A DNA stretch of 64,000 bases, taken from Parablautia sp. Marseille-Q6255 (lineage in GTDB: Bacteria > Bacillota > Clostridia > Lachnospirales > Lachnospiraceae). A model generated the notes under the pieces. The model did not search any database. It saw only the letters and a list, made by a program, of their open reading frames with translations, and was not told the DNA's origin. Location: contig NZ_CATNVD010000003.1 of assembly GCF_951230155.1 (NCBI RefSeq), positions 62,001-126,000 on the forward strand, read 5' to 3'. Positions 43,504-60,452 of the stretch are shown here, one piece after another. Numbering within the stretch: position 1 is the first letter of the stretch; every line of letters begins with the position of its first letter. The position numbers were made by a program, and so were the translations under genes.

Positions 43504-43676
43504 CTGTCTCTTTACCTGAAAGATTAGCTCTGCGGATGCAGAGTTGCTTCGTCGGTGAACTTGCCCTTTCCAGAGTGTCGTCCGAATCCAGTCCTTTTGC
43601 CTGAGAGTTTACCGCGACTTCACCTTCGGCGTCATACGATCAAAATGCTTTGTATGATCTCTTCCAGATTCTTCAT
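43504..43676 (-). ncRNA. Tandem glycine riboswitch
   Basis: Two aptamers upstream of gcvT. The first has the conserved GCCGAAGGTG (43622-43631) and CTCTCAGGCAAAAGGAC (43591-43607). The second has ACCGACGAAG and CTTTCAGGTAAAG near 43511-43560. Spacing and order match the cooperative tandem class, and the genes controlled are the glycine cleavage system. Confidence 0.92.
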
Positions 43677-43702: not shown

Positions 43703-43731
43703 ATTATATTGTACAATTTTTCCCGTGTCAA
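43703..43731 (-). promoter_or_regulatory. gcv operon promoter
   Basis: Minus strand perfect consensus: TTGACA (43726-43731), 17-nt spacer, TATAAT (43703-43708). The predicted start is ~20 nt before aptamer 1. The -35 box overlaps the stop codon of the upstream helicase gene (TGA, 43728-43730). Confidence 0.88.
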
Positions 43732-46700
43732 GCGTTCTTTTTTGTATATAATTGCTCCAGAATACGAATTGTTTTGTTCGCAGTCTCACTTCCCAGCGAC
43801 TGATAGAGCTCTTTATCTCCGATAATATAAAACTCTTTCTTTGCGCGTGTGGCTGCAACATTCATAATATTCGGCTCTGACACTGCCCAGGCTGCGGCGC
43901 CCCTGCTTGCCTCGTCTGCTCCCAGGACCAGATAGACGATTTTCGCCTCTTTCCCCTGAAACGTATGGACTGTCCCCACATTGACCGGACCCTTCTTATC
44001 ACGTCTTGTAAATTGAATGCGGTCTAATTCCCTTGCCATCTGCTGTGCCACATTCCGAAACGGAGAGATAACATAAATTTCTTCCTTCAGGTTTTCCTCT
44101 TCCTCTAACCGTTTGGATATCAGATCTACAAGAAAATCCGCCTGTTCTTTTACAAATTTGTCATTTGCAGTTCCTTCTACAGAATACCAGCACGCTCTTC
44201 CCTGTGCCTCATCCTCCGGTTTGCCCTGCACCATCAGACCATTGTAAGAAATCTCGTTGGAAATCGTAAACATCGGATCGTCAGAACGCCTGTGCACCCA
44301 TAGGGGAATTCCAATCCATTCTTTTTCCTTTTTATAAAATCCATACTTACCGGCAGCATCCATAAGCGTCTGCACAGAAGTATTTTCTGACAGATACTTT
44401 TCGCTGACATCATAATGCATTCCTATCAGACGTAAAACCTTTGAATCCAGCGTAAGCACGGGCTTGATCTGCGCCGGATCCCCGACCGCCATAATCCTTC
44501 TGCTGCGGAATGCGGCGCCCACACATGCCTGCGGCAATGCCTGTCCTGCCTCGTCAACAAACAGATTATAAATAGAATTTACCGGCATATTGAAAAACAT
44601 ATTTCCCAGGCTTGCAAATGTCGTGCTGATCACAGGAACTGCAAAATTCAGCCACTGCCACGCCTCTGTAATGATTTCTGCACCATTTTCTTTCGGTGCA
44701 TATTCCGATTGCTTTTTCCAGATCGTTCTCGCCTTCGTCAAATTTTTTCTGTTTTCATAAAGGAACTGCTTTTTTACTTTTAAAGAATCGATGAATAATT
44801 CCGTCTGCATGATACGAAACTGCTTATCCGACCATGGATTGCTTTTCTGAAGCGCTTCATAAGACTGCGAAAAATCAATTCCTTTTACTCCCGGCCGCTC
44901 ATTTTCCCCTTCCAGCTCCTTTATCCTTTCCAGCTGTATTTGCAGTTCCTTCTCCCTTTTTTCCTTCCATCGGGAGACCTTCTCCCTGTCCTCGCGCTGC
45001 TGTCTGATCAGGTCGGCAATTCTTCTGTTCTTCTCCAGAATACGCTTTTCCATGTCTGCCTGTTCCTTCATCCGCTCACTTTTCTGCTTTTCTACATGAG
45101 TCAGCGTATCATTTGCACGCGTAAGAGACGCAAAATATGATTTCACGCCGGAAGGATTAAAAATTTTCTGTATCCAGAGAAAAGCCGGCTTCTGTAATCG
45201 GACGGTATCATAGTTCCTCTGTGCCTGCTTTAAGCCTTCTTCTAAATCCGCCATATCAGAGGTAACCTCTGCAAGCCTGTTTTCCAGCTCTTCTTTCTCC
45301 TGCCTGCATTTCTGTGCTTCTCGCTCCTGCTTTTCAGAATCTGCAGATATCTGCCGCTGTTTTTCTTCTTTTTCTTTCTCAAAAACCGCCCGTTCCTGTT
45401 CATACTGATTCTTCAGCCGGATCAGCTTTGCTGACCTTTCCCGACATTTCTGAAGCTCTCTTTTTCTTTCTTCTACTGTGTGATATTTTGAAAGAAAGCG
45501 CTGATAGATACGGTCATCCGGCACATAGGAGGTCTCAAGCTCCTCCTCCATCGCTTCAATAGCCAGAAGCAGCTTCTTTACTTTTGCAGAAGCCCCTCCT
45601 TCCATTGAAAAAGTACCCCAGTTTTTTTCTTCCTTTTCTTTTAATACTAAAATCCGATCTTTTCCGCTTACTTCCTCCTCGATGTCACAGTTAGAAATAT
45701 GCATAAAATAATCGGCTTCTTTTATTTGTTCAAGAAATTCCCCTCCGATACTTGTACTTTTCGGCAGCTCCCTGACAATATTTTGGACGGCTCCGTTATT
45801 AGAGCTTGCAACCACGATATTCTCCCCTGCGATCTCCTTTGGCAAAACTCCGATTTTAGCCTTTTCCCAGTAGTTCAGCTCCCCCTGTATATATTTATCG
45901 GGACGGCTGCAGATTTCCAGAGCCTGCCGCACAAGCATATGCGCAAAAATATCTCTTAAAAGAGTAGTTTTTCCAGTGCCGGGCGGCCCATTTACGCTCC
46001 GCATATTTTCCGGATCATGAATCGCAATATTTGTCGCTACCTGCTGCATAAATGCAAGGGCATAGTCAGAATTTCCCGGGAAACGCCCGTCCGGGTAATT
46101 TTCCGGCTGCAGAATATCCTCGAAAATCTCCGGATAAAAATTAGAAGATTCCTTTTTGCTGTCCAGATTTATTCTTTCCCCCGGACTCTCCTGCAAATAT
46201 CTTTTTAAATTTTCCGTATCGAGCTTCTTTGCCTTTTCCAGATCCCGGATAAAAAAGGAGTGCAGATTCACTACGTCCCTCTCCAGATTCCGTACAAACT
46301 TATACCGGAAATTACTTAAATCTGCATGATACTTCTCTAAGAGCCACAAAATAACAGAATGGAAGGCGTGTTCTTTGTCCCTCTCCCTGTCAAATTTTCC
46401 TCTTATCTCATTCCCAAAATCCCCCTCAGCTCTTCCTATATCTTTTGGAAAGTCTCCGTAATTCCGAATATACCCGCTCATTGTATAAAAAAATCTGTTT
46501 TGCAGGAATTGCAGGTCTTTATCAAAAAAGAGAGCCACCGTAAATTTTTTCGATTTACTTCTGTCCTCATATGTATGTTCAAGATTGTACTTCTTCTTCA
46601 GGATATCAATCACTTCATCGAAATCAAAAATCCCAAAAAACAGTACAATCCCTGATTTCCGAAATGCCTTATCCGAGAGTTTTTCCCTCTCTTTATTCTC

Positions 46701-46844
46701 TCTTAAAAACTCTCTGAAATATTCCTCCCAGTCCTGTATTTCTCTGTCCAGAGTCATCATCCCCTGCTCCCCCGGCTCAATGAAACCCTCTGACAGCTTT
46801 TCCACTACAATCCACGCATCCAAAATATTTTCTTTTGTATTCAT
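43728..46844 (-). CDS. Large SF1 (Upf1-like) helicase with long coiled-coil insertion
   Basis: 1038-residue AAA/SF1B helicase-like protein. An N-terminal domain of unknown function (~1-255) precedes Walker A GPPGTGKTT (286-294). A long charged coiled-coil (~430-660) splits the motor. RecA1 then resumes with Walker B VDEAGQA and GDPAQIKPV, and RecA2 has GTVHTFQGKEAKIVYLV and a conserved Arg near AATRAKKEF. The fold suits nucleic-acid translocation or unwinding; proteins of this general layout are common in defence islands, but no named system is assigned. It is AT-rich relative to genes on the left, stands alone, and ends inside the gcv -35 box. Confidence 0.85.
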   Translation of the reverse strand: MNTKENILDAWIVVEKLSEGFIEPGEQGMMTLDREIQDWEEYFREFLRENKEREKLSDKAFRKSGIVLFFGIFDFDEVIDILKKKYNLEHTYEDRSKSKKFTVALFFDKDLQFLQNRFFYTMSGYIRNYGDFPKDIGRAEGDFGNEIRGKFDRERDKEHAFHSVILWLLEKYHADLSNFRYKFVRNLERDVVNLHSFFIRDLEKAKKLDTENLKRYLQESPGERINLDSKKESSNFYPEIFEDILQPENYPDGRFPGNSDYALAFMQQVATNIAIHDPENMRSVNGPPGTGKTTLLRDIFAHMLVRQALEICSRPDKYIQGELNYWEKAKIGVLPKEIAGENIVVASSNNGAVQNIVRELPKSTSIGGEFLEQIKEADYFMHISNCDIEEEVSGKDRILVLKEKEEKNWGTFSMEGGASAKVKKLLLAIEAMEEELETSYVPDDRIYQRFLSKYHTVEERKRELQKCRERSAKLIRLKNQYEQERAVFEKEKEEKQRQISADSEKQEREAQKCRQEKEELENRLAEVTSDMADLEEGLKQAQRNYDTVRLQKPAFLWIQKIFNPSGVKSYFASLTRANDTLTHVEKQKSERMKEQADMEKRILEKNRRIADLIRQQREDREKVSRWKEKREKELQIQLERIKELEGENERPGVKGIDFSQSYEALQKSNPWSDKQFRIMQTELFIDSLKVKKQFLYENRKNLTKARTIWKKQSEYAPKENGAEIITEAWQWLNFAVPVISTTFASLGNMFFNMPVNSIYNLFVDEAGQALPQACVGAAFRSRRIMAVGDPAQIKPVLTLDSKVLRLIGMHYDVSEKYLSENTSVQTLMDAAGKYGFYKKEKEWIGIPLWVHRRSDDPMFTISNEISYNGLMVQGKPEDEAQGRACWYSVEGTANDKFVKEQADFLVDLISKRLEEEENLKEEIYVISPFRNVAQQMARELDRIQFTRRDKKGPVNVGTVHTFQGKEAKIVYLVLGADEASRGAAAWAVSEPNIMNVAATRAKKEFYIIGDKELYQSLGSETANKTIRILEQLYTKKNA

Positions 46845-46964
46845 AAATACACCTTCCCAAATAAAACTCTGTGTACTCTGCCTGCCTTTTTCTTATTTCA
46901 TTGTACCAAGTGCCTTTTTATTTATCAAGCTCCCCGTACAGATATTAAAATCCCTCACGCACAG

Positions 46965-47073
46965 TGCCCCCGGGGATGTCAAGTCATTGCTACAAAAATA
47001 TGCGGCTTTTTTGCCATGAAAATGGCTTAAAACCGCATGTTTCTGTATAGAGGATGTTATATTATTGTTACAA
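46965..47073. repeat. Repeat unit A: two copies of a ~21-nt motif 78 nt apart
   Basis: Copy r1 is at 46975-46995 (GATGTCAAGTCATTGCTACA plus A) and r2 at 47053-47073 (GATGTTATATTATTGTTACA plus A). r1 is preceded by TGCCCCCGGG. The unit recurs 1742 bp to the right (48707-48815) with the same 78-nt spacing. Between r1 and r2 is a hairpin (ATGCGG/CCGCAT with inner GCCAT/ATGGC, ~46999-47038). The HipA-like stop codon lies within r2. Confidence 0.85.
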
Positions 47074-48225
47074 TACAGCATTTTTTAATTCTTCAAGTCT
47101 TCGAAAAAACATTTCTTTCCATACTGTCATATCTTCAAAAATTTCTTCATCTATATCTTTTATCTGATGCAGCCCAACATGTCTGACTGCTTCTATTGCC
47201 GCCTCCCGCTGCGTTTTTTTCTCTGGATAAACCGTTTGACAGTTTGCTCCATCTATCGTGTCATAACTTCCAAAGCTCTGATTAAAATCCATGATCGGAT
47301 ACAGGGAAACATATTTATTGGTCCGATTATCAACCAAAAATCCCCAGTTTTCCGGATGTCGGTCTATATTACCAACCAGATAATCAAGGATATTCATTCC
47401 ATAATACGTCTCTTTATCAATCCGCAAACACTCATTCAATACATTCAAGTCATGATTTAACGCATATATCTCAAATGCCATTTTTGAAACGATAGAATAC
47501 TGCCTGGATGTTATAATTTTACTCTGAGTTACTCTTTGCCCATCATAAAAGCCTTCATCATATTTCACCTGTTTAAAGTCAAAGCATTGACATAATCTAC
47601 TTGCTAAAAGTTCTTTCCGAACAGCATCGTCACCGCCATCTTTTAATAAAATGAAATCTTTTCCCCTTCTGATCCATGCTTTGGGAAAGCATCCTTTGGT
47701 GGATAAATCCGGTGCCAGTTCCTGATTTGTAACTGTCATCGGTTTTCCACGTAAAGAAAGTTCTACCACCGCCTCATTTAACGAATTATCATACAAATTT
47801 ATTTTTTCGTAAGAAATCTCTTCATCACTCTTTTTTACCCAATAAACATCTGTCAATGATACACAGTGATATGATAATGCTATTTTAGCACGATCCCGAT
47901 CCGTCATTGCCTGTGCCATTCCGATACTGTTTAAAATTTCTTTTGCATATTTCCTGTCCAAAGACAACACCCGCGAGGCACACCAATGATAAAAATTATT
48001 TATATTATTGATCAGCGTATCAAAATCACGATCATTCTCCAAATAAAGATCATACGGAATAAACTTTTCGTCCAAAATAGCAGCCTCTCCACGTATATTA
48101 ATCTCTGCTACTTTTCGTTCACCATGCATGACATCGTAATACGCAATATCCGGATTGTATCTTTTTCTTGCGTTATTATCGTTAAGCTCAATTATTGTTT
48201 TCGGCTGCAACAAACCATTATTCAT
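47068..48225 (-). CDS. HipA-like protein kinase
   Basis: 385-residue protein with a HipA/PI4-kinase-type catalytic region in its C-terminal half. NIDRHPENWGFL (~292-304) matches the catalytic-loop pattern and PIMDFNQSFG (~315-325) the metal-binding motif. An ATP-site Lys is likely in the DFILLKDGG stretch. The N-terminal ~170 residues are not recognised. HipA proteins phosphorylate tRNA synthetases or other targets and are usually held by a partner. Here the partner candidate is the 120-residue gene 16 nt upstream, not a typical HipB helix-turn-helix. The ATG at 48225 is chosen (GGTGATAAT upstream); its stop codon lies in repeat r2. Confidence 0.75.
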   Translation of the reverse strand: MNNGLLQPKTIIELNDNNARKRYNPDIAYYDVMHGERKVAEINIRGEAAILDEKFIPYDLYLENDRDFDTLINNINNFYHWCASRVLSLDRKYAKEILNSIGMAQAMTDRDRAKIALSYHCVSLTDVYWVKKSDEEISYEKINLYDNSLNEAVVELSLRGKPMTVTNQELAPDLSTKGCFPKAWIRRGKDFILLKDGGDDAVRKELLASRLCQCFDFKQVKYDEGFYDGQRVTQSKIITSRQYSIVSKMAFEIYALNHDLNVLNECLRIDKETYYGMNILDYLVGNIDRHPENWGFLVDNRTNKYVSLYPIMDFNQSFGSYDTIDGANCQTVYPEKKTQREAAIEAVRHVGLHQIKDIDEEIFEDMTVWKEMFFRRLEELKNAVL

Positions 48226-48241
48226 ATTATCACCATTCCAA

Positions 48242-48604
48242 TCACTCACGATACAACGTATATTCAACTTTACGTACTTTCGATTTTTTGTCCTCGCTTC
48301 CCTCCATATATGCCCAGAACATCAAATATATTTTTTTACCATCAATTACTGCAAGTTCCAATGGAGTGGTCAGTCCTGTACCCATTGCCGTAAAATTAAT
48401 ACATATTATCTTAAAATGATTTTCAAAAATATCTGTCTCTATCCTTTGTTTATGAGAAATATCTTCAACAAAACTAATAGTTAAAATCAATTCAAAATAA
48501 TTATCTCCGTTAATATTTAAAGTAAGATCACTATTCTCATCAAATAAAAACACAGTTCCGTAACTGATGATTTCCCGATTCTGAGAGCTTAATTTTACTT
48601 GCAT
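48242..48604 (-). CDS. Small protein encoded with the HipA-like kinase, family not recognised
   Basis: 120 residues starting at ATG 48604 with AGAGGTG six bases upstream. The composition suggests a beta-rich fold (ILTISFVED, FKIICINFTAMG, KIYLMFWAYMEG) without membrane segments or helix-turn-helix. It ends 16 nt before the HipA-like gene and is co-directional, so the two are probably one transcript and one functional unit (regulator/antitoxin, or substrate). Confidence 0.7.
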   Translation of the reverse strand: MQVKLSSQNREIISYGTVFLFDENSDLTLNINGDNYFELILTISFVEDISHKQRIETDIFENHFKIICINFTAMGTGLTTPLELAVIDGKKIYLMFWAYMEGSEDKKSKVRKVEYTLYRE

Positions 48605-48706
48605 TTTGTCACCTCTCAACTAAAGATGTTTTTATTGTAACATGTTCCTATTTTACAAACAAGGCATTCTCCATTTTCACACTGGTATGCTGTCACGAAC
48701 GCATAA

Positions 48707-48884
48707 TGCCCCCGAGGATGTCAAGTCATTGCTACAAACTTTTTTGCCACTTTTTCCTCGATTTTTCCCATAAAACCGTTGTTTTGGAACAGAGGACGTT
48801 ATATTGTTGTCACAAAATCAGCAGGGAGGATGTAACGTCATTGCTACAAGTTCAGTAGTAGTGGACGTTACATTATTGCTACAA
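48707..48884. repeat. Repeat unit B: four copies of the ~21-nt motif
   Basis: Copies are r3 at 48717-48737 (identical to r1), r4 at 48795-48815, r5 at 48829-48849 and r6 at 48864-48884. r3 and r4 are 78 nt apart, exactly as r1 and r2; r4-r5 and r5-r6 are 34 and 35 nt apart. TGCCCCCGAG precedes r3. The consensus of the six copies is GAYGTHAMRTYRTTGYYACA plus A. r6 ends one base before the stop of the third recombinase. All copies have the same orientation. Confidence 0.87.
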
Positions 48885-48885
48885 A

Positions 48886-50448
48886 TCAAGCCAGTGATTT
48901 CCATTCCACCTCCACTCTCCCATCATCATACACATATATCCCCTGCACATATTCTTCCAGCATCTCTCGTGTCAGCTTTTCATAGCCTAAATACATCAAC
49001 ATCTGCTCCACCGGAACATTCTTTTTCATCAGGATTTCTTTCTCACCGTTTATCAGTTCTTCCAACTCCTGTATACGTTTCTGCAATCGTTCTCTTTCTT
49101 CTTCCAACTGCTTCTTGGCTTCCATGAACTGTTTCTGGTTCATCTGTCCCTCGTGATACTTCTCATAGTTCTGACGGTTCTGAAGCTTTATCTGCTCCTG
49201 ACGTTTTTCACAGTCCGTACTTTCCAGCTCATAGGCTTCTATGCTGTCCGTATGCTGTTTTCTCATAGATTGCTGCATCTGTTCCTGGCTGATATTCTGA
49301 CGTAAATATGCCTTAATTTCTGCCAGCACGATATGCTCTAGCATTTTGTTATCAGCTTTTCCGGCAAAGCATCCTGTATCTTCTTTTCCTTTACTGTAAG
49401 CACAGCTATAAAGGATATGACCATGAACCGGACTGCTTGAAGTCAGGCTTCTGCGACAATTTCCGCATTTCACATAGCCACCTAACAATGTTGTTTCCCT
49501 GTCGAATTTGCTTTTCTTGGTGTATCTGATCTGCAAGGACTGTGCTTTTTCAAAAATTTCTTTTGATACGATCGGCTCGTGATGATTTTCCATCACTTTC
49601 CACTGATTTCTCGGTACCGGTACTTCTTTCCCTGTTCCGGGATCTGGAATTTTTGTCTTTCCATAGACCATACAGCCTATATAAGTTTTATCATCCACAA
49701 TCTTCCGTATCATATCACTCGTCCACTGCAGTCCTCTTGATGCAGCTTTCTTGCTGTCTGATTTCTGTCGTCTGCTCATGGACTGCAAGGGAGTCAGTAC
49801 CCCCTCTTCATTAAATAACCGACAAATCTCCATCTTGGAATACCGCTGATTTGTCAGTTCAAATACTCTGCGAATCACTTCTGCTTCGTCCTCTACAATC
49901 ACCAGTTCTTTCTTATTTTCAGGATTGATTCGATACCCATAAGGTGCAGATCCACAGCAATACTCACCTTTTCCTCGTCTGGTACTGACTGCCGATTTTA
50001 CCTTTACAGACTGGTCTTTCACATAAAAATCTGCGATCAGTCCTTTAAACTGTACTTCGATGTCGGAACTCTTTCCTATATAATCTTTAGAATCATATCG
50101 GTCTGAGATAGAAATAAATCGTACTCCCAGGAATGGAAAAATCTGTTCCAGATAAGTTCCCATCTCAATATAGTTTCTGGCAAAACGTGAAAAATCTTTT
50201 ACCACAATACACTGCACTTTATTCTCCCTAGCAAGTTCCAGAACCTGCTTAATTGCCGGACGCTCCATACTGGAACCAGAATATCCATCGTCGTAGAACT
50301 CCTGAAATGGCATAGAAGCCAGTTCCGGGATATTGGAAATATAATCTTTTACCAGTTTTCTCTGATTGATAATGCTGTTACTTTCTCCCTCTGAATCATC
50401 TTCCATGGAAAGACGGTAATATCCAATAATCAGTTTCTGATCACTCAT
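48886..50448 (-). CDS. Large serine recombinase, third of three
   Basis: 520-residue large serine recombinase. The N-terminal resolvase domain has the nucleophile in YYRLSMED (S14), SNSIINQ and VKDFSRFARNYIEMG. The recombinase domain follows (~165-270), then a zinc ribbon (KCGNCRR and CAYSKG), and a C-terminal coiled-coil. It overlaps the preceding recombinase gene by 8 nt. Its stop lies one base from motif copy r6, so the putative recombination site is directly at its 3' end. Confidence 0.92.
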   Translation of the reverse strand: MSDQKLIIGYYRLSMEDDSEGESNSIINQRKLVKDYISNIPELASMPFQEFYDDGYSGSSMERPAIKQVLELARENKVQCIVVKDFSRFARNYIEMGTYLEQIFPFLGVRFISISDRYDSKDYIGKSSDIEVQFKGLIADFYVKDQSVKVKSAVSTRRGKGEYCCGSAPYGYRINPENKKELVIVEDEAEVIRRVFELTNQRYSKMEICRLFNEEGVLTPLQSMSRRQKSDSKKAASRGLQWTSDMIRKIVDDKTYIGCMVYGKTKIPDPGTGKEVPVPRNQWKVMENHHEPIVSKEIFEKAQSLQIRYTKKSKFDRETTLLGGYVKCGNCRRSLTSSSPVHGHILYSCAYSKGKEDTGCFAGKADNKMLEHIVLAEIKAYLRQNISQEQMQQSMRKQHTDSIEAYELESTDCEKRQEQIKLQNRQNYEKYHEGQMNQKQFMEAKKQLEEERERLQKRIQELEELINGEKEILMKKNVPVEQMLMYLGYEKLTREMLEEYVQGIYVYDDGRVEVEWKSLA

Positions 50449-52096
50449 GTTCTACCGCCCCCTTAAACCCGAAGTTGATTTCCAGTCTGCCATCACCATG
50501 CAGATACATACTTTCAATCAAGCCCTCCGCAAGTTCCGCATTGATTCTGGTTGTCCCATCCAGTTCCAACAGACTTCGTAAAAATCTGGCTTCTTTTTTC
50601 TGTTGTTTTTCCAGCTTTCGTATGGTCTGCTCCAGAGACTTCTTTCTCTCTTCACAAAACTCTTTCCAGTTATTACGGTCATCTTTCATTTCTATATAGG
50701 CTTCTTTGGAAAATTCACCCTCTTTATATTTCATAAATGCCTGTGCCAGTTTTTCTGAACGTCTTTCCATATCTGCATCCAATTTTCTGATCTCAGTTTG
50801 AATCTCATTGATTTTGGAAAGAAATACCGCACTGCTTATAGCAGACATATCCTTTTTCCGCAATCCAGATAACTGAAACTGTCTGGTTAGCTCCGAACGG
50901 ACAATTTTCTGCAGCTTCTCTTCGGAAATAGATTTGTGACTACATTTTCTTTCATCCCGATACCAGGCAGCATTGCAAAAGTAATACACATTGCCTCTGT
51001 ATCTACGTGTACACATTTTCCGCTTACAATCACCACAATAGAATACATTGTAAAATGCTCTTTCATCATCTTCCCACCCTGCAGTAGTTTTTGTTGCTTT
51101 CTGTTGTGCTGCTTTTAGCCTGACCTGTGCTTTTTCAAACAATTCTCTGCTAATAATTGGCTCATGGGCATTTGGCGTAATAATCCACTGGCTCTCGTCC
51201 AATATGTCACACCATTTTTCACCTCTTTGAAATCTGGATTCATATTTTCTCTGAACCAGATCGCCATAATAATTATTCCGGTTCAGCACTGCACGTATCG
51301 AAGAATTTCCCCACTGATGAAGGTTCTCTCCGTCCTGACAGTACACATGATGATATTGGTTATAATCTGAAATCCGATGTACCCTATCCTCAAACAGCCT
51401 GTCAATAATGCTCTGTACGCCATCTCCCGAAGCATATTCTTCAAAAATCCTGCGGACAATCTTTGCAGCTTCCGGTTCCACCATCAACTTATAAATTCCA
51501 TTTATCTTTTCCACACAATATCCATATGGAGCTGTAGATCCCACATACTCACCATTTTTCTGTGCAATACGTTTCGCTGCCCGTTCTTTTGCGGAAATGT
51601 CTTTCGCATAAGCATCATTCACCAGATTCTTGATATTCATGGATAATTCCTGATTCTTGGCATCCGGTGCAAATGAATCATAGTTGTCACATACAGAAAT
51701 AAACCGCACTTTCATAAAAGGAAGAATCTTTTCCAGATAGTTGCCAGTTTCGATATAATTTCTTCCAAATCGTGAGAAATCCTTTACCAGAATACAGTTT
51801 ATTTTACCTTCCCTGACATCATTCATCATCCGTTCAAATCCCGGTCTGTCAAAATTTGTTCCGGTTTTTCCCAGATCAGAATAAATGTTATATACAGCAA
51901 TTTCATACTCTCTGTTCGGATTTTCATTGTGCTTCTGAATGAACTCTTTTATCAGCGTAACCTGTGTTTCAATAGGTTCTGACTTTTTTTCATCACTGTC
52001 TACGGATAATCTGACATAAATTGCAGCCATACATACCGGAATCCCAAGAACTTTCTTCTCTGTGTTTTTCTTATATCTTTTTGCTGTCCTTGCCAT
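50441..52096 (-). CDS. Large serine recombinase, second of three
   Basis: 551-residue large serine recombinase. Nucleophile region YVRLSVDSDEKKS (S31), ETQVTLIKEF, and VKDFSRFGRNYIETG. The zinc ribbon has YCGDCKRKMC and FCNAAWY. A C-terminal coiled-coil follows. An N-terminal extension of ~22 basic residues precedes the catalytic domain. The ATG directly follows the stop of the first recombinase (TAAATG). Confidence 0.92.
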   Translation of the reverse strand: MARTAKRYKKNTEKKVLGIPVCMAAIYVRLSVDSDEKKSEPIETQVTLIKEFIQKHNENPNREYEIAVYNIYSDLGKTGTNFDRPGFERMMNDVREGKINCILVKDFSRFGRNYIETGNYLEKILPFMKVRFISVCDNYDSFAPDAKNQELSMNIKNLVNDAYAKDISAKERAAKRIAQKNGEYVGSTAPYGYCVEKINGIYKLMVEPEAAKIVRRIFEEYASGDGVQSIIDRLFEDRVHRISDYNQYHHVYCQDGENLHQWGNSSIRAVLNRNNYYGDLVQRKYESRFQRGEKWCDILDESQWIITPNAHEPIISRELFEKAQVRLKAAQQKATKTTAGWEDDERAFYNVFYCGDCKRKMCTRRYRGNVYYFCNAAWYRDERKCSHKSISEEKLQKIVRSELTRQFQLSGLRKKDMSAISSAVFLSKINEIQTEIRKLDADMERRSEKLAQAFMKYKEGEFSKEAYIEMKDDRNNWKEFCEERKKSLEQTIRKLEKQQKKEARFLRSLLELDGTTRINAELAEGLIESMYLHGDGRLEINFGFKGAVEHE

Positions 52097-53770
52097 TTAT
52101 CCCACCTCTTTCCTGCACTCTGTCCGGTGTTCCGCATAAAACCGTCTTATGACTTTCATTTTCTCAATCATATCCTGATAACGGATATGAATTTTGATCT
52201 GTTTGTTTTCATAAATATAGATTTTATCTACAGTCAGTGCCAGCAATGTGCGATCCAGTTCTTTGATTTCCAGTGATTTCTTCCAGTCCTCCAACTGAAC
52301 GGTTGCAGACACTCCACCCTCAAACATTTGCTTTACCAGTTTTTTCTGGTTTTCAATCATCTGCTCCAGTTCTTCACATTTTCTTCCGTAACTTTCCCGA
52401 AAATCATCGAACTCCTCTTTGCTGATCAATCCCTCTTTCAAGTCATCACCCAAAGATGCTTTCAGGCTGTAATAACGGTTATATTCTTCCTGCAACTTAC
52501 TAATCTGCGTATCATAACCGATTACCTGATCGTAACTGACTTTCATTTCACAAAGTTCTTCCATAATCATCTGATAGTCTACGAAAAGTGCCGTATATGC
52601 CTGAATCTCTTTCAATACAATCCTTTTCAGCACCTCTTCCGGAATACTGTGTCTGGTGCAATCTCCACCTTTATTTTTTGTCTGGCAAATATAAAAGGCT
52701 TTTTTCTTTCCCTTATACTGATTTACCCTGCGTATCATCGGTGTATGGCAATCTCCGCAAAATACAAAACCCGAAAAAAAGTTTGCACTGTCCGATGTTT
52801 TCGATGCCCTGCCATCATACTGAAGTAGCTTCTGCACCACATCAAAATCATTCTGCCTGATTATTGCCGGATGCGTATTTTCTACTTTCACCCACTCTGA
52901 TTCTGGCTTATCCAGACGTTGCTTTACCTTATAGCTGATTCGTTCCTGCTTGCCTTGCACCATGTTTCCAATGTAAACCTCGTTGGTCAGAATCCTTTTA
53001 ATCTGCACTGCCGACCATTTCGGTGTGTCTGAGCTGTGAAATCCAGAATTGTAATTCTCGCCATTTGCCTTTTTATATTCTTTTGGCGACTGCACATGAC
53101 GTACATTCAGTTTTTCTGCGATTGCTCCAAGACTGAATCCATCAATTTTCCACGAAAATATTTTTCTTACAATATCTGATGCATAAGAATCAATCACCAG
53201 ACAATTCTTATTCTCTGGATCTTTGCAGTAACCATACGGGGCAAACGCTCCAATAAATTCACCTTTTTCACGTTTGATTTTCTGGTGGCTTCGCACTTTA
53301 CCGGAAATGTCCCGACAATAGCTTTCATTTACGAAATTTTTGATTGGAACTACAAATGACTTCTCTGAAAAATCTGCTGTTTTACTGTCAAACTGGTCTG
53401 TAACTGAAATAAAACGCACATTTAAAGCCGGGTAGGTCTTTTCGATCCATCGCCCGGCTTCTATATATTCTCTTCCGAATCTGGATAAGTCTTTTACAAT
53501 CACGCAATTTACTTTTCCAGCTTCTATATCAGTTGTCATTCGTTTAAACTCAGGTCGATCAAAATTTCCTCCTGAGTATCCGTCATCCACATATATATCA
53601 AAGATCTGAATATCCGGCTGGCTTTTTACAAAGCTCCGAAGTAACTCTCTCTGATTTGCAATGCTGTTGCTCTCTGACTTCGCACCGCCCTCTTCCATAT
53701 CATCTTTCGATAATCGAAGATACAATGCAGCATCGTATATATCTGGCATATTCATTTGCATCTGTTCCAT
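52097..53770 (-). CDS. Large serine recombinase, first of three
   Basis: 557-residue large serine recombinase. Nucleophile region YLRLSKDD (S21), SNSIANQRELL, and VKDLSRFGREYIEAG. The zinc ribbon has FCGDCHTPM and CQTKNKGGDC, with a coiled-coil after it. GGGAGCG lies before the ATG. Three consecutive, divergent large serine recombinases in one operon imply that they act together, as reported for several Firmicutes integrative elements. Confidence 0.92.
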   Translation of the reverse strand: MEQMQMNMPDIYDAALYLRLSKDDMEEGGAKSESNSIANQRELLRSFVKSQPDIQIFDIYVDDGYSGGNFDRPEFKRMTTDIEAGKVNCVIVKDLSRFGREYIEAGRWIEKTYPALNVRFISVTDQFDSKTADFSEKSFVVPIKNFVNESYCRDISGKVRSHQKIKREKGEFIGAFAPYGYCKDPENKNCLVIDSYASDIVRKIFSWKIDGFSLGAIAEKLNVRHVQSPKEYKKANGENYNSGFHSSDTPKWSAVQIKRILTNEVYIGNMVQGKQERISYKVKQRLDKPESEWVKVENTHPAIIRQNDFDVVQKLLQYDGRASKTSDSANFFSGFVFCGDCHTPMIRRVNQYKGKKKAFYICQTKNKGGDCTRHSIPEEVLKRIVLKEIQAYTALFVDYQMIMEELCEMKVSYDQVIGYDTQISKLQEEYNRYYSLKASLGDDLKEGLISKEEFDDFRESYGRKCEELEQMIENQKKLVKQMFEGGVSATVQLEDWKKSLEIKELDRTLLALTVDKIYIYENKQIKIHIRYQDMIEKMKVIRRFYAEHRTECRKEVG

Positions 53771-53883
53771 TTTACATCGCTCCCAACTTACTTATTCCAT
53801 TGAATTTGAAGTCAGAAACCATGTATCACGTTCATTTTCCCTGACCTCACATTAACATAACATCTGTACCTTTGCAAGACATT

Positions 53884-54129
53884 TTAATACATCAACTCCG
53901 TCCTTTTTCTCAGATAATCACTAATGGCATCTGTGGCATCCATTTCTCCTGTCATCTCCACAACCACTACATATCCTTCATTCATGTGAGCATACGGCTG
54001 ATCGCCGGATTTATCCAGAAAAGTTTCCACTTTCTCAGAAATAGCTTTATCCATATCAGGAATTAAATCTTCAATGTCCTTTAACTGCTCCAGATCAACA
54101 CTAGAATCTATTACCGACTGATTCACCAT
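53884..54129 (-). CDS. Small acidic protein upstream of the recombinases
   Basis: 81 residues from ATG 54129, with AGAGGTG six bases upstream (a GTG three codons earlier is worse placed). It is acidic and probably alpha-helical at the N-terminus (LEQLKDIEDLIPDMDKAI), then contains EGYVVVVEMTGEMDATDAI. No family is recognised. It lies 113 nt upstream of the first recombinase, same strand, and may belong to the mobile module. Confidence 0.65.
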   Translation of the reverse strand: MVNQSVIDSSVDLEQLKDIEDLIPDMDKAISEKVETFLDKSGDQPYAHMNEGYVVVVEMTGEMDATDAISDYLRKRTELMY

Positions 54130-54239
54130 GATGCTCACCTCTTTTCCAACATATTCTTTGTATCAGTTGTCCTATACCTACAATTTTCTCAATCACATCA
54201 CCTTACCTTTCACATTTTGTTCTCAAATTTTATCTATTA

Positions 54240-54401
54240 CTATGGCATTGCATATTCTGTTCGGCGTGTTGGCTTCCATTTGTATAACCCGTTGTCAACG
54301 TCACAGTCAACCTCTATCAGAGTATTTCTGAATACTGCCAGCTTCTTCGCAAGCCTACCAGTCGTTTCCGGAGTATCTTCGACGCTCGCCCATAAAATCA
54401 T
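54240..54401 (-). CDS. 53-residue orphan ORF
   Basis: Reads from ATG 54401 to TAG 54240. The peptide begins MILWASVEDTPETTGRLAKK and ends with a WKPTRRTEY stretch. The composition looks protein-like, but a stop directly precedes the ATG and no ribosome binding site is seen. It may be a fragment of a longer element gene. No family assigned. Confidence 0.35.
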   Translation of the reverse strand: MILWASVEDTPETTGRLAKKLAVFRNTLIEVDCDVDNGLYKWKPTRRTEYAMP

Positions 54402-54619
54402 TTACAGGGTTATGGCATCTGTGAGATCAGATTATACAGCTCATGTAATTTTCAAGGTACAAAAGAGTTTTTTTGAATATCCTTTCACTTATTACAGCCT
54501 GGAAACACCAAAATGTTGTTCACTTCAAAAAAATCCTCTCACTAATAAAGCCTGACAGAAGGATTTTACCAACCTCATTTTGCAATAATTTGCAAAAAGT
54601 ATTTATCCTCATCTGTACA

Positions 54620-54704
54620 TTCGCTTTCATGCGAACCTTTATCGTACTGTTATTTTAATTCGCATTCATGCGAATGTCAAGTGTTTTGTTCGCTTCAATG
54701 CGAA
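54620..54704. promoter_or_regulatory. Three operator-like palindromes upstream of the XRE gene
   Basis: TTCGCTTTCATGCGAA (54620-54635), TTCGCATTCATGCGAA (54659-54674) and TTCGCTTCAATGCGAA (54689-54704). Each is a TTCGC-N6-GCGAA inverted repeat; the last ends 8 bp before the -35 box. They probably bind the adjacent XRE protein. Confidence 0.7.
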
Positions 54705-54712
54705 TCTTTCTG

Positions 54713-54741
54713 TTTACATTCACTGTTTTTGGTAGTAAAAT
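54713..54741 (+). promoter_or_regulatory. Promoter of the XRE gene
   Basis: TTTACA (54713-54718), 17-nt spacer, TAAAAT (54736-54741), 32 nt before the start codon. Confidence 0.7.
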
Positions 54742-54773
54742 GGATTTATCAAAAAGAAAGTGGGAAATCTGAT

Positions 54774-55349
54774 ATGACAATCGGTGATAAAATAAAAAAA
54801 ATCCGGACATTCCGGAATATGACACAGGCAGAACTTGGTGCTGCCCTCGGTTGGGGCGATAAAGGTGCAAATCGTCTTGCCCAATATGAAACGAATTACC
54901 GGGTTCCCCGCAAAGATCTGGTAACTGAAATGGCTAAGATTCTGGACGTAAACCCACTGACACTACATGAGCCAACCACGATGGACGCCTCTGAACTGAT
55001 GGAAATTCTGTTCTGGATTGATGAATTTAACCCAGCAGCTATTAATCTCTTTCAGTTAGAAACCTATCCGGGTAAAAAATGCAATTCCAGTGAGGGTACC
55101 GCTGTCCGTTATCATGATTCTGATAACTGGCCGGCTCATCCACCTGTTGGTATGTGGTTCAATTATGGAGTTCTCAATGATTTTATGAAAGAATGGCTTC
55201 TCAGAAAAGAAGAATTGAAATCCGGTAAAATTACCAGAGATGAGTATTTTGAGTGGAAAATTAACTGGCCACAGACCTGTGATGGGTGTGGGAAATATGA
55301 GCCGAAAAGGCAATGGCGATCTGCAAATGCAGAACTTAGTGAAACTTAG
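54774..55349 (+). CDS. XRE-family transcriptional regulator with C-terminal extension
   Basis: 191-residue protein. An N-terminal Cro/CI-type helix-turn-helix (1-~62, IRTFRNMTQAELGAALGWG) is followed by a ~125-residue domain ending in a CDGCGKYEPK stretch. The ATG at 54774 is chosen; the frame is open to 54681, but that part overlaps the promoter and operators. It is the only plus-strand gene between the IS region and the right edge regulator. It probably regulates itself, and perhaps the recombinase side. Confidence 0.82.
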   Translation: MTIGDKIKKIRTFRNMTQAELGAALGWGDKGANRLAQYETNYRVPRKDLVTEMAKILDVNPLTLHEPTTMDASELMEILFWIDEFNPAAINLFQLETYPGKKCNSSEGTAVRYHDSDNWPAHPPVGMWFNYGVLNDFMKEWLLRKEELKSGKITRDEYFEWKINWPQTCDGCGKYEPKRQWRSANAELSET

Positions 55350-55389
55350 CAAAACTTAAATTTATTATGTTTTTTCTCTTTAACCAAAG

Positions 55390-55436
55390 AAAAAAGCACT
55401 GAAAACCATCAGTCCAACGGTTTTCAGTGCTTTTTT
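55390..55436. terminator. Bidirectional terminator between XRE gene and ABC exporter
   Basis: An 18-bp perfect stem: AAAAAAGCACTGAAAACC (55390-55407) pairs with its complement at 55419-55436 around an 11-nt loop. A6/T6 ends give U-tracts on both strands. Confidence 0.88.
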
Positions 55437-55552
55437 CATATTGCTCTATTGAATTTTCCTCATTCCACCTATACAAGTGAAACTTAGAGAAACTTAAATT
55501 AAATCTCTTTCAGACAATTCAATTTGGATATTCACCAACTGTGGATTATTTC

Positions 55553-57292
55553 TCAGTGGGCCAGTTTCCAGCTTACTGCCTGCTGCCTTGCATCCACAAA
55601 TCTCTTATAAATGCCTTCCTGCTTCATTAGTTGCTCATGTGTTCCCTGCTGTACAATTCTTCCTTTGTCAACAACCACAATCTGGTCTGCATGTCTGACC
55701 GTTTTTAATCTGTGGGCAATCATAATAATCGTTTTTTCCTTTGTAAGTGCATCTACTGCATCCATCAGCTCCTTTTCATTCTCTGGATCAACATTTGCCG
55801 TTGCTTCATCCAATATGACGATTGGCGCATCCTTCATAATCGCTCTGGCTATCGAAATACGCTGTTTCTCACCGCCGGAAAGTGTGGCTCCACCTTCTCC
55901 AATCACTGTGTCGTACCCATCCGGAAGTTTGCTGATAAAATCATGACAGCACGCTTTCTTCGCCGCTTCCACCACTTCCTCATGACTTGCATCCTGACGT
56001 CCGAATTTAATATTATTCTCAATGGTGTCTGCGAACAAATACACCGACTGAAATACAAATGAAAAATTACGCATCAGACTGTTCATGCTGTAGTCTTTTA
56101 CATTCACACCTCCAAGTGTCACTTCCCCGGAATCCACATCCCAGAACCTGGCAATCAGATTGCAAAGTGTTGATTTTCCTCCACCAGATGGTCCAACGAT
56201 TGCTGTCGTCGTTTTCTGCGGAATAGAGAGCGATATATCATCAATGATCTTCCGTTTGTCATAAGAAAACGAAACATTAGAAAGTCTAATATCGTAATTT
56301 TCCGGCTGTATTTCTTTACCGTCGATATCCATGGTATCCAGCTCCAATATTGCATTTGCTTTATCTACACATACGCTTACCACATGTAAAAGAGATGAAT
56401 AATTTCCTGCACATTCCAGACTGGCATAAAGCATAAATGCTGAGATTGTCATACCAATTGCATAGACCGCACTCATAGTTCCATTAATATAAAAATATGC
56501 ACTGCATGCTACGATTACTGCACCTGTGGTTTTTGTTATGACGCTTTGCAGAAAATGATAAGGGACAAACAACATCTCCATCTTTGTATTAATCTTTTCG
56601 CATGCTTCATTTGCATCATTTAATCTTTTTGCCTGTTTTCCAAGCAGGTTGTATGATTTTACTTCTGATATTCCCTGCAGATACTCCATGATCTGATTTA
56701 CAAGCTCTGTATCGCATACCACTTTTTGCTCTGAATCGTTTTTCCCTGCATTCTGCATCACAGCATTTACACCAAAGAAAATAAGCACTCCTGCTGCAGC
56801 TGTCAGTCCAATTCTCCAGTCAAAAAGAAACAGCATAAGAATGATCATGGATGTTTCCAGAATTCCCTGCATGGTCAGCATAACCACTCTCGCAGCTACA
56901 TCGCCAAGTGTTTCCATTGTATTCGTCGTAATAGAAGAAATTTCCCCGATGCTGTTGGCATTAAAATATCCCATCGGCAGATAGCGCAGATGCTCTGCAA
57001 TCTTGATTCTCATAAAAGCACTCGCATTATATCCTCCTTCTGTCTGAAGCACTGTAGAGTATCTCTTACAGATGACATCAACTACAATTGCAATCACCAT
57101 GATCGCAATTGAACCACCAATATATTTTCCTATTGGTTTTCCACTCATCAAACCAATCAATATGTACATAATAGCCGGTATCTTCATTGCTGAAGCGAGA
57201 GCCTCTATAAGTCCGATCACTATCGACAGTTTAAATTTATTACCATTTTCCCTACCTGAAAAACGAAAGAATTTTGCCAGAATTCCAAACAT
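55553..57292 (-). CDS. ABC exporter half-transporter, second of heterodimer
   Basis: 579-residue type IV ABC protein: a six-helix domain (~1-320) and a nucleotide-binding domain with Walker A GPSGGGKST, Q-loop VFQSVYLFADT, signature LSGGEKQRIS, Walker B IVILDEA and switch His in AHRLKTV. It starts 1 nt after the partner gene. The pair under a TetR regulator resembles drug or siderophore-type exporters; the cargo is not known. Confidence 0.9.
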   Translation of the reverse strand: MFGILAKFFRFSGRENGNKFKLSIVIGLIEALASAMKIPAIMYILIGLMSGKPIGKYIGGSIAIMVIAIVVDVICKRYSTVLQTEGGYNASAFMRIKIAEHLRYLPMGYFNANSIGEISSITTNTMETLGDVAARVVMLTMQGILETSMIILMLFLFDWRIGLTAAAGVLIFFGVNAVMQNAGKNDSEQKVVCDTELVNQIMEYLQGISEVKSYNLLGKQAKRLNDANEACEKINTKMEMLFVPYHFLQSVITKTTGAVIVACSAYFYINGTMSAVYAIGMTISAFMLYASLECAGNYSSLLHVVSVCVDKANAILELDTMDIDGKEIQPENYDIRLSNVSFSYDKRKIIDDISLSIPQKTTTAIVGPSGGGKSTLCNLIARFWDVDSGEVTLGGVNVKDYSMNSLMRNFSFVFQSVYLFADTIENNIKFGRQDASHEEVVEAAKKACCHDFISKLPDGYDTVIGEGGATLSGGEKQRISIARAIMKDAPIVILDEATANVDPENEKELMDAVDALTKEKTIIMIAHRLKTVRHADQIVVVDKGRIVQQGTHEQLMKQEGIYKRFVDARQQAVSWKLAH

Positions 57293-57293
57293 A

Positions 57294-59048
57294 TCATTCT
57301 CCCTCCTTCACCGTATCTTTTACAGAAATATGGGCATCCCACATTTCCTTATAAAGCGGGCATAACATCAGTAGTTCCTCATGTGTACCATGTGCTGTTA
57401 CATTTCCATCATTTACGACAAAGATCTGATCACTGTCCTTAACGGTAGAAAGCCTGTGTGCGATTACGATCAGTGTCTTCCCTGCTACCAGTTTTGCAAT
57501 AGAATTCTGCAGAATCGCCTCATTTTCCGGATCCGTATAAGCAGTTGCCTCATCAAGAATTACAATCGGAGCATCCTTCAGCATTGCCCTTGCAATGGAG
57601 ATACGCTGCCTCTCTCCTCCTGACAGATGTCCTCCTGCACCTCCTACAACCGTATCAAATCCGTTCTCAAGCTGCATGATAAATTCATAGCATCCGCTTT
57701 TCTTTGTCACCTCGATGATCTGTTCATCTGTAGCCTCCGGATTTCCCTGTCTAATATTTTCACGTACCGTTTCATTGAACAGATAATTATCCTGTGCAAC
57801 ATATGCAATTTTCCGATTAAAATCTGCAAGCGACATTTCTTTGACATCAACTCCACCGATTTTAATACTTCCGGAATCCACATCCCACAAGGACGCAATC
57901 AGCTTTGCGATGGTTGACTTTCCGCTTCCGGAAGGTCCTACGATTGCATTTACCGTTCCTGCTTTTAGCTCCATAGTTACTCCATGCAGAATCTCTTTGT
58001 CGTGATAACCAAACCTGACATTTTCAAGTGTAACGGAGTTATCTTTTGGAACACTTTTACTTTTCTCTGGACGTTCAAGCTCCGGCTGTTCCAGAATTCC
58101 TGCCACTTCACTAACAATCACTCCGATCTTGCCAAGATCATCTGTATAGGAACCCACTGTGATCAACGGTCCAACGATTCCAAGTGATAAAATAATGCAG
58201 ATGACAAAATCTGAAATCGCAAGTGTTCCATTGGCTACATAATGTGCCCCAAACGGCAATACCGTAAGAAGCGTATAAGGTGTGACCACCATCATCAGTC
58301 CATGAAAGATCGAGCACCGTTTCATCCAGGAAATAAAGGAATCTGCATATTCAAAAGCCGCCTTTGTAAATTTGGCATAAGAACTTTCTGTCTTTCCAAA
58401 TGCCTTGATCACTTCGATTCCGTCAATATATTCCACTGCCGCATCATTCAGATCTTTTGTTGTCTGAACCGTTCTCTCGAAGCTTGGTTTATAATCCAGC
58501 ATCATTCCAAAATAGGAAAGAAATCCCACTATAACCGGCACCAATGACCAGAGTGCCAGTCTCCAGTCTGTCAGGAAGAAATAAATCAAAATCACAATCG
58601 GTGCCAGCAGATTGGACGTGAATTCCGGGACAATATGCGCCAGTGTTGTCTCGATACTGTCGATTCTTTCCACCATAATATTTTTAAATGTACCGGAAGG
58701 TGTGTCTTTCACATAGCCAAGAGGTACCCGCGCCAGCTTGTCACAGCAGGATTTTCTTATATTTGCAAGTACTGCAAACGTTGCTTTATGTGACAATGCT
58801 GTCGAAAGTGAATGAAGCAGTTCTGCAATGATAAACGATAATGCAATCAGAACCGCTTTTGCAAGATATATTTCAAACTCCTTTTCACCATTTAAAAACA
58901 GCTTTACTATATCTGCAATAATAAAATACGGCAAAATCTTAAAAATCACATTTCCGATTGCAAGTAACACACTCCATACATAGGCAATTCTTTTTTGTCC
59001 GGCCCATGTCAGGATCCAGCTGATTGCCGACTTCTTTTTTTCTTTCAC
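57294..59048 (-). CDS. ABC exporter half-transporter, first of heterodimer
   Basis: 584-residue type IV ABC protein: a six-helix domain (~15-315), then Walker A GPSGSGKST, Q-loop VAQDNYLFNET, signature LSGGERQRIS, Walker B IVILDEA and AHRLSTV. The first helix begins WILTWAGQKRIAYVWSV, a style seen in IrtA/YbtP-like pairs. It lies 111 nt downstream of tetR on the same strand. Confidence 0.9.
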   Translation of the reverse strand: MKEKKKSAISWILTWAGQKRIAYVWSVLLAIGNVIFKILPYFIIADIVKLFLNGEKEFEIYLAKAVLIALSFIIAELLHSLSTALSHKATFAVLANIRKSCCDKLARVPLGYVKDTPSGTFKNIMVERIDSIETTLAHIVPEFTSNLLAPIVILIYFFLTDWRLALWSLVPVIVGFLSYFGMMLDYKPSFERTVQTTKDLNDAAVEYIDGIEVIKAFGKTESSYAKFTKAAFEYADSFISWMKRCSIFHGLMMVVTPYTLLTVLPFGAHYVANGTLAISDFVICIILSLGIVGPLITVGSYTDDLGKIGVIVSEVAGILEQPELERPEKSKSVPKDNSVTLENVRFGYHDKEILHGVTMELKAGTVNAIVGPSGSGKSTIAKLIASLWDVDSGSIKIGGVDVKEMSLADFNRKIAYVAQDNYLFNETVRENIRQGNPEATDEQIIEVTKKSGCYEFIMQLENGFDTVVGGAGGHLSGGERQRISIARAMLKDAPIVILDEATAYTDPENEAILQNSIAKLVAGKTLIVIAHRLSTVKDSDQIFVVNDGNVTAHGTHEELLMLCPLYKEMWDAHISVKDTVKEGE

Positions 59049-59121
59049 ATTCGTTCACTCCTTACTTTGGTTTTATTGTTGTTTCTTTCATTAGTTTATT
59101 CTAACTCATATATAATAAAAT

Positions 59122-59147
59122 AGGTGGCTTACTGGCATTAGCCACCT
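59122..59147 (-). terminator. Hairpin between tetR and the ABC genes
   Basis: AGGTGGCT (59122-59129) pairs with AGCCACCT (59140-59147), followed on the minus strand by ATTTTATTATATATG. It may partly terminate the tetR message or serve as a leader for the exporter genes. Confidence 0.5.
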
Positions 59148-59159
59148 GACTTACATTAG

Positions 59160-59789
59160 TTATACCGGGAATTCAATATTCCACAATCGTTCCCAGCCAC
59201 CTGTATTGAATTCTTTCAGCTGATGCACATTTTTCTTTGCAGTCTCCCTGTCTATATCATGCTCAATGATCTGAAATACTGATGAAAAAAATCCCGTATA
59301 GATCATATGCATAAGGCTTTCCTCTACAATCGGTATTTTCACACCGTTCTCTTTCATCTTTTCCATATATTTCAGGCTGGACTTCATTTCCCGTTCTACC
59401 ATATTGTGTATGAATAGTTCAAATTTTCCACTGTCTCCACATTTCAACAATAATCTGAAATTATCATAATGATCATAAATATAATCAACCATCTGCTCCA
59501 TTCCATCACTGGATGTATACGACATATTCCTTGTCTGATCACTGGCCGAAAGCTTTTCAAACTCCTCAACGATCTGATCATAAATCTGATAAATGTGTTC
59601 CATATAGGGATCTGTCAGTGCATCAAAAAGTGCCTCTTTCGTCGGATAATATTTGTAAAATGCACCAGTAGTAAGTCCGGCATCTTTTACAATGTTTCTT
59701 AAAGATGCTCCGGTCAGACCATCTTTCAGGAAATGTTTTCTGGCTGTATTTAATATATTTTTTTGTGTATCTTCTGCTTTTGTCGACAT
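59160..59789 (-). CDS. TetR-family regulator of the ABC exporter
   Basis: 209 residues. The N-terminal helix-turn-helix (~8-60) contains TGASLRNIVKDAGLTTGAFYKYYPTKEALF; the C-terminal helical ligand domain is divergent. The ATG at 59789 with AGAGGAT upstream is preferred over 59843, which lies in the operator. A 32-bp perfect palindrome covers its own promoter, so autoregulation is very likely, and it probably controls the two ABC genes downstream. Confidence 0.88.
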   Translation of the reverse strand: MSTKAEDTQKNILNTARKHFLKDGLTGASLRNIVKDAGLTTGAFYKYYPTKEALFDALTDPYMEHIYQIYDQIVEEFEKLSASDQTRNMSYTSSDGMEQMVDYIYDHYDNFRLLLKCGDSGKFELFIHNMVEREMKSSLKYMEKMKENGVKIPIVEESLMHMIYTGFFSSVFQIIEHDIDRETAKKNVHQLKEFNTGGWERLWNIEFPV

Positions 59790-59820
59790 TCTTTTCGTAT
59801 CCTCTAAAGTTCTTTCCAAA

Positions 59821-59877
59821 AATATAACAGTGCTATATAGCACTGTTATATTTTAACTCATTACAGGAATTTGTCAA
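59821..59877 (-). promoter_or_regulatory. tetR promoter with 32-bp perfect palindromic operator
   Basis: The half-site AATATAACAGTGCTAT (59821-59836) is followed directly by its exact complement (59837-59852). A TTGACA -35 box (minus strand, 59872-59877) is placed so that the -10 (AAAATA, 59849-59854) overlaps the palindrome edge. Binding would block transcription. Confidence 0.8.
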
Positions 59878-59921
59878 GTCTGCTGTTTCGATTTTTTATT
59901 TTCCCGTGTATTCAATTTTCA

Positions 59922-60184: not shown

Positions 60185-60188
60185 ATGT

Positions 60189-60404: not shown

Positions 60405-60452
60405 AATTATCATTCATCTACTTTCCAAAACTATTTACAATATCCTTTGCCA

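Follow-up and report, generated by a model that had tools for sequence, protein, structure and literature searches.

A serine-integrase triplet element and stacked cassettes appear to share the end of a protease gene in gut Lachnospiraceae

A mobilizable element with three large serine recombinases and a set of non-autonomous cassettes quite probably use, on the evidence of their sequences, one attachment site (attB), namely the last codons of a Csp-like S8 protease gene. By way of this three-recombinase element, gut Lachnospiraceae appear to stack and trade phage-defence and sugar-use packages at the end of the protease gene. As judged by comparison between genomes, the ends, the replacement of the gene tail and the exchange of cassettes and elements were demonstrated; the anatomy is well supported, and the activity is predicted.

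The window (the whole 64,000-nt stretch of DNA that was analysed, from Parablautia sp. Marseille-Q6255) contains two repeat units of 117 nt each, 1742 bp apart in direct orientation and 72% identical overall. Motif A (GAGGATGTCAAGTCATTGCTACAA, with G for A at the second base of the first copy) lies at 46972..46995 (A1) and 48714..48737 (A2; C3:110714), the two copies having an exact 21-mer in common, and motif B is found 78 nt after A in both units (B1, 47050..47073; B2, 48792..48815). The second unit holds two additional copies, C2 (48826..48849) and C'2 (48861..48884); all copies are on the plus strand. A1 was read as the left end (attL arm) of a kinase cassette, A2 as the left end (attL arm) of the recombinase element and B1 as an accessory arm-like site.

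Three 21-mers are repeated in the window, every one inside this motif. A chance origin was rejected, since 20 second-order Markov surrogates of the window contained no repeats of 19 or 21 nt. The motif pattern had four exact matches in the 3.79-Mb genome (reversed control, 0), all on contig C3 within 25.3 kb, and the fourth of these lay about 8.2 kb past the window end. When up to 3 mismatches were allowed, 16 matches were obtained in the whole genome (6 copies at the locus and 10 scattered), against 11 for the reversed control. The repeats are genuine and well beyond what chance would give. Transposon ends were rejected as an explanation, the edge of the repeat coinciding with a gene-end half-site. 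The coordinates, orientation, spacing and common TGCCCCCGRG prefix that a sequence-only reading of this DNA had given were all correct, and its proposal that the units are recombination sites is supported, in that they may be read as left attachment sites of a 23.7-kb element.

The recombinase genes of this element, LSR3 (48886..50448), LSR2 (50441..52096) and LSR1 (52097..53770), were assigned to the large serine recombinases with Pfam. They form a serine-integrase triplet, being adjacent on one (the minus) strand with the catalytic motif in each; a YYRLS motif was found in LSR3, a YxRLS motif in LSR2 and LSR1, and a zinc-ribbon region in all three. The mobilizable element (minus strand, 23.7 kb) runs from 48714 to 64000 and on to C3:134411 (window-equivalent 72411), so that its other end, about 8.4 kb beyond the window, was outside the view of the sequence-only reading. 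This right end is marked by the fourth motif match, a stretch that is near-identical between genomes stopping where the S8 protease gene starts; the gene that it abuts, the target, was located at L005:14385-16127 (minus strand). Besides the recombinases, the element encodes a MobA/VirD2-type relaxase (PF03432) and NikA/MobC-like, actin-like and D5-like proteins. Two ABC-transporter-like genes, a TetR-like gene and an ECF-transporter-like set were also read from the translations at 55553-63276. Between G000 and G232, a genome of another genus of the same family, the element is about 99.95% identical over about 23.7 kb (12 mismatches, one gap), and the cassettes beside it differ.

The motif scan gave six right ends, five of which adjoined an S8 match (L054, L057, L064, L067 and L077). 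At the sixth, L051, there was no S8 match and the end of the element lies in frame within another gene (...PNELVGEG joined to EDVIIRLH), perhaps a secondary target. A scan of IMG/VR for the motif gave two viral contigs, one with an A-B-C-C' unit (L156) and one with a right end and no S8 match (L157); the attP joint was found 0 times in the IMG/VR scan. Since the right ends of L051 and L157 have no S8, this gene is the main but not the sole target. LSR3 gave 24 and 17 matches to plasmid and phage records, respectively, all below 60% identity.

Both the element and the cassettes sit in the 3' end of the S8 gene. The best NCBIfam names for the protease were the germination proteins CspBA and CspC, at scores well below the cut-offs, and native S8 genes of the genus mostly end with ...GYGALCVRDSLPx and a stop. 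To test for tails, each A flank was reverse-complemented and fused at the CC dinucleotide to the stub TATGG. Under this rule, of which the register was set after the sites had been seen (some were out of frame under a first rule, which stripped leading Gs and gave native tails mainly at five-C sites) and which was also applied to the null, a short tail (YG.[LIVMF]C) was found left of A in 30/35 sites (null 1.1%) and a full native-like tail (like YGALCVRDSLPx and stop) in 25/35 (null 0.035%). Left out of the 35 sites were L061:4913 (degenerate), L047 (no A found) and duplicate loci. The short tail was missed at L040:3255, L046:527, L050:226, L052:666 (a chance motif match) and L059:1406; L046, L050 and L059:1406 differ by one base in the C run, since they gave native tails under the first rule. 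Native-like tails, each closed by a stop, were also given by the later-found loci L161, L162, L164 and L165 (YGRPCISESILG, YGTLCVRESLPR, YGGLCLRDSIPI and YGALCMRDSLSI, respectively). A half-site score built from 16 native S8 ends placed 30 of the 35 sites above the 99% level of the null and 25 above the 99.9% level. The repeat edge, the S8 gene end and the element end meet at one dinucleotide.

The neighbourhood of S8 and gcv did not show the native left boundary: the S8 gene and gcvT were on different contigs in all nine genomes of the genus in which both were found, these being draft assemblies in which linkage is possible. In three genomes (L121, L122 and L123) the match to this type of S8 gene stops at about residue 547 and is followed by a common tail, GADIIGLS or GAVIIGLS and a stop; a second integrating element may therefore use a different site in the S8 gene.

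The cargo between the two units of the window is a pair of genes on the minus strand. The first (47068..48267) encodes a kinase-type protein that matched CtkA (E 9.9e-6, with a profile of 8 homologues) and PDC-M03A (E 1.1e-10); the label HipA-like given to it earlier holds as a distant match, by way of CtkA, and no Pfam HipA model was reported for the protein. Its partner (48242..48619) is a DUF6864 protein (PF21732, E 2e-25). The outermost S8 3'-end half-site, B'a (46945..46968, minus strand), encodes YGALCVRDFN..., an atypical long tail, with a putative crossover at CC 46969-46970. A replacement S8 3' end, B'b (48687..48710, minus strand), is carried by the kinase cassette and encodes YGALCVRDSIPV and a stop, with a putative crossover at CC 48711-48712. 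Since an S8 gene end lies left of most A copies and mostly gives a native tail when joined to S8, the CtkA/HipA-like pair is taken to be a cassette made of left site A, cargo and replacement S8 end. The body of this cassette was 97.6% identical over 1640 bp to that at L059 (Eubacterium sp. UBA3279), and over 1.5 kb starting 150 bp inside the next element the identity of the two loci was 54.7%. The trio of the L059 genome was 74%, 54% and 80% identical to that of the window, the last two values being over partial stretches and the last on another contig. Kinase homologues of about 64-72% identity occur in several genomes of the genus (L024-L029, L031 and L032), some of them also with a DUF6864 partner; no A unit was detected in the stretches fetched for these loci.

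An SF1 helicase related to MkoC (43728..46844, minus strand; PADLOC MkoC, E 3.2e-71, accessory) starts 128 nt left of A1. No match to it at E 1e-60 was obtained in 24 other genomes of the genus (25 with its own), and no A unit was found on its far side, between the helicase and the glycine riboswitch of the gcv operon. The riboswitch, upstream of the operon at 43579-43676, adjoins the helicase. One promoter-like match lies between the helicase and A1; such matches numbered 7 against a shuffle mean of 8.8, without enrichment. The helicase may be an older cassette with its left end lost.

The exchange of cassettes between hosts was followed in 49 S8-type gene ends (identical ends merged), among which the 70 best-scoring pairs were examined. 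At the right-end loci L005, L035, L037, L039, L153, L064, L077, L054 and L057, identity was 91-100% after the core and 50-74% in the S8 sequence before it, compared over 53 bp or less in L054. Cassette starts gave 93-95% after the core versus 57-69% in S8 before it for L081/L141/L143, 91% versus 58% for L045/L140, and 100% of 129 bp (the contigs end there) versus 74% for L101/L148. L084 and L085 were alike on both sides of the core (98% and 96%), as near relatives would be, and in some pairs with S8 at 77-85% the common stretches start further from the core. In complete cassettes the left boundary is unit A, mostly accompanied by B and C, and the right boundary is a replacement S8 3' end. The nine that were measured span 1.2-21 kb, and the cargo genes scanned beside units lie mostly in one orientation. 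The stepwise accretion of cassettes proposed in the sequence-only reading is supported. The unit search that it had called for in other genomes brought up other cargo beside the same trio; helicase, kinase pair and recombinases are not always kept together, cargo being exchanged between genomes and elements. Nor was the unit found widely away from recombinases: units without them adjoin an S8 gene end where this is readable, many being at contig ends.

The scan of cargo covered part of the cargo genes, and the family names used here are database labels. G232 has one cassette with KilA-N (PDC-S22) and an AbiEi-like protein and another with a 21-kb set including GH3, GH94, GH35 and MFS proteins. 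The cargo between or beside units is a TOTE primase-helicase and a Schlafen-type protein at L041, an AAA_14/DUF4143 protein (PDC-S01) and a DUF6864 relative at L063, and a GH32-like protein and a kinase fragment behind a degenerate A at L061. Within recombinase elements were found NsnABC-like genes (G102), a PD-T4-6-like kinase (G191) and an RnlA-like protein (L070, Blautia sp. XA-2221). With one side read, AbiL-like genes lie beside the unit at L042 and L046, and a helicase with DUF2290 at L049. Cargo proteins without a match include L036:9919-11115 and L076:592-2352.

G399, G468 and G477 have cassettes at the S8 end, and no relative of LSR1-3 was found between S8 and A (E 1e-5). The cargo of G399 is one AAA_14/DUF4143 gene, and its A copy has 2 mismatches, with no B or C detected; G468 (Faecalicatena contorta) has type I-C cas1 and cas8c among its genes. 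In both, the S8 frame stays open across almost the full length of the query. G477 (Blautia caecimuris; loci L131/L138) carries KilA-N, and its S8 was matched in the C-terminal half only, with stop codons. In G471 a full-length S8 match with an A site (no B or C detected) is accompanied by a separate S8 N-terminal fragment about 21 kb away (L117/L134). G474 (Blautia massiliensis) has a relic of LSR3 (93% identity) between S8 and A, which suggests that cassettes can be decayed elements; its S8 coding sequence (L132/L133) is interrupted near residue 272-282, and the two parts are separated by about 21 kb. In both G477 and G474, S8 has other serine recombinases (25-35% identity) immediately upstream. 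The main comparisons are independent of the right ends of L051 and L157 and of the broken S8 genes of G477 and G474, so the odds given below are unchanged by them.

The exact motif pattern was present in 7 of 397 sampled genomes of the family, and A with up to 3 mismatches in 11 of the 397 (reversed control, 0). A scan of a species-genome collection returned 31 stretches, which by inspection were 24 left-type units, 6 right ends and 1 chance match. At L127/L128 (G421/G459) the metagenome contig C159 apparently breaks off at the S8 crossover core, and further contigs of that genome start close to a unit or right end; the assembly seems to fork here, as it would if several junction states or strains coexisted.

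Under the preferred reading of an element and cassettes sharing one attB, attP (R joined to A) would recombine with attB (S8) and insert the element beside resident cassettes. On excision, attR (S8 joined to R) would pair with any nested attL (A2, A1 and so on). Choice of the outer attL (A1) would take the cassettes along in a 25.4-kb circle; choice of the inner one (A2) would give a 23.7-kb circle and leave the cassette on an S8 gene now bearing the cassette's tail. As several attL lie in a row with one attR at S8, circles of 23.7 or 25.4 kb are predicted, and not one of 1742 bp. The cassettes would probably arise from decayed elements, and the whole would amount to SCC- or CIME-like accretion and mobilisation. 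The reactions catalysed by serine integrases are attP x attB and, when a directionality factor is present, attL x attR. Other pairings of their att sites do not recombine, as stated in a passage of PMC3783163. A 1742-bp circle is unexpected because it needs attL x attL, which serine integrases do not normally perform. A cassette's first gain of an S8 end is not explained by the canonical reactions alone.

It is rather unlikely that the triplet is a true cassette-capture system, in which single defence or metabolic cassettes would move in and out at S8 via hybrid sites (S8 end joined to A), as a serine analogue of the integron with B, C and two extra recombinases setting the direction. An integron-like array, as first proposed from the sequence, in which individual cassettes would leave and enter the repeat units as small circles through the action of the recombinases, is unlikely. 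The sizes of the nine cassettes, the prevailing orientation of the scanned cargo genes and the existence of cassettes without recombinases between cassette and S8 are in keeping with it, but the junctions are attL-like (S8 end joined to A) and a single circle would need attL x attL or attB x attL. Identity with an integron was rejected: the recombinases here are serine recombinases (Pfam) whereas the integron IntI is a tyrosine recombinase, and by reading of their ends the cassettes are bounded by A units and, at the far end, by S8 3'-end copies of the target gene instead of attC.

It is distinctly improbable that the cassettes are fossils, that is, decayed elements shuffled by homologous recombination, with recombinases that move their own element only. 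The decayed A sites (L040:3255 and L061:4913) and the LSR3 relics near S8 in G474 and G458 would fit such a history, and the common units would supply homology; against it, breakpoints fall at the core while S8 before the core is only 50-74% identical, and a near-identical cassette occurs beside different trios.

There is hardly any probability that unrelated small elements inserted independently into a hotspot and that the repeats are terminators or regulatory sequences with no role in recombination: the A-B spacer does fold terminator-like in two units with cargo adjoining, but a single dinucleotide is at once the edge of the repeat, the end of the S8 gene and the end of the element, and the unit before the recombinase genes of the window has no hairpin and yet keeps A, B and C.

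Spacers of four units were folded. The one at 46985..47060 (minus strand) gave a strong, terminator-like fold in the sense of the cargo (-26 kcal/mol, z -5.95, 0/200 shuffles), and G102, also with cargo adjoining, likewise had a strong hairpin in this sense (z about -6 for the two); the spacers of window 48727 and G232, identical in sequence, were without one. The hairpin was not flagged in a terminator scan. Under the preferred reading it may end transcription of the cargo, and B and C may be regulatory sites for the recombinases. Of 49 A copies, among which some loci are counted twice, 32 had an A-B spacing of 77-79 and 10 had no second copy; the next spacing was 33-34 in 29. Motifs A and B are about 120 apart at L061, L063, L075 and L078, where an additional hairpin-like insert of about 40 bp separates them. 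In attP, with A joined to the right end, the arms make up an imperfect dyad (24+2+24) with 14/24 pairs; the symmetry is suggestive only, since the best other nearby centre scores 13 against 14.

By analogy, the arrangement would work like SCC/ECC, the Dehalococcoides ssrA islands and CIME accretion, here with a serine triplet and at a new target. SCC/ECC, as described in PMC6222049, have large serine recombinases, insert at rlmH, carry directly repeated att sites (multiple att sites in 16/32 ECCs) and vary in cargo; CRISPR-Cas excised together with SCCmec is described in PMC10434264. The locus resembles SCC/ECC (CcrAB/CcrC) in its large serine recombinases, direct repeats of att and variable cargo, in the in-frame replacement of the target gene end and in its composite arrays (window, G232 and L059). 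It differs in having three LSRs, none of them of the Ccr family by the NCBIfam cut-offs: LSR3 scored 98.1 bits with CcrB, 73.9 with CcrC and 56.6 with CcrA (cut-offs 900, 900 and 700), and LSR2 and LSR1 scored 79.0 and 91.1 bits with CcrB (cut-off 900). The target is a Csp-like S8 protease gene and not rlmH (orfX), the element here has a relaxase, the cassettes bring an in-frame replacement C-terminus, and the hosts are Lachnospiraceae. It is not SCC by membership, because recombinase family and target both differ.

Dehalococcoides belongs to a phylum other than that of the hosts studied here. In the parts of PMC3146451 on its ssrA islands (DsiB/DsiA), a CcrB-like serine recombinase and tandem islands bounded by copies of the target 3' end are described, and 15 islands without an integration module are read as possible cis-mobilizable elements. 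The likeness lies in tandem units, each of which has a 3'-end copy of the target gene at its border; as described there, those islands differ in targeting tmRNA, in having one large and one small recombinase and in their cargo. The CIMEs of streptococci (ICESt1/ICESt3) are presented, in passages of PMC5704250 and PMC7563491, as non-autonomous units that keep their att sites and are cis-mobilised after an integrating element lands alongside. The window kinase cassette, cassette 1 of G232 and the G399 cassette likewise have att sites at both ends and no integrase or transfer genes; the composites are not tied to serine triplets in those passages, unlike the triplet with a predicted 2-bp core described here. 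Three adjacent serine integrases in one orientation are also reported for streptococcal ICE triplets, which disrupt mutT, traG or hsdM (PMC4701971); the passages on these triplets describe no cassettes, and the words accretion and CIME are absent from the main text of that paper. Among the literature matches listed there was no array of this kind in Lachnospiraceae, which is no proof of absence.

The predicted att sites and 2-bp core for a serine triplet make the question of why three integrases are used testable, and the units can serve as markers for locating new defence cassettes. For gut commensals such as Blautia, Faecalicatena and their relatives, the locus would provide an SCC-like route by which phage-defence and glycan-use genes may be gained and swapped at one kind of address.
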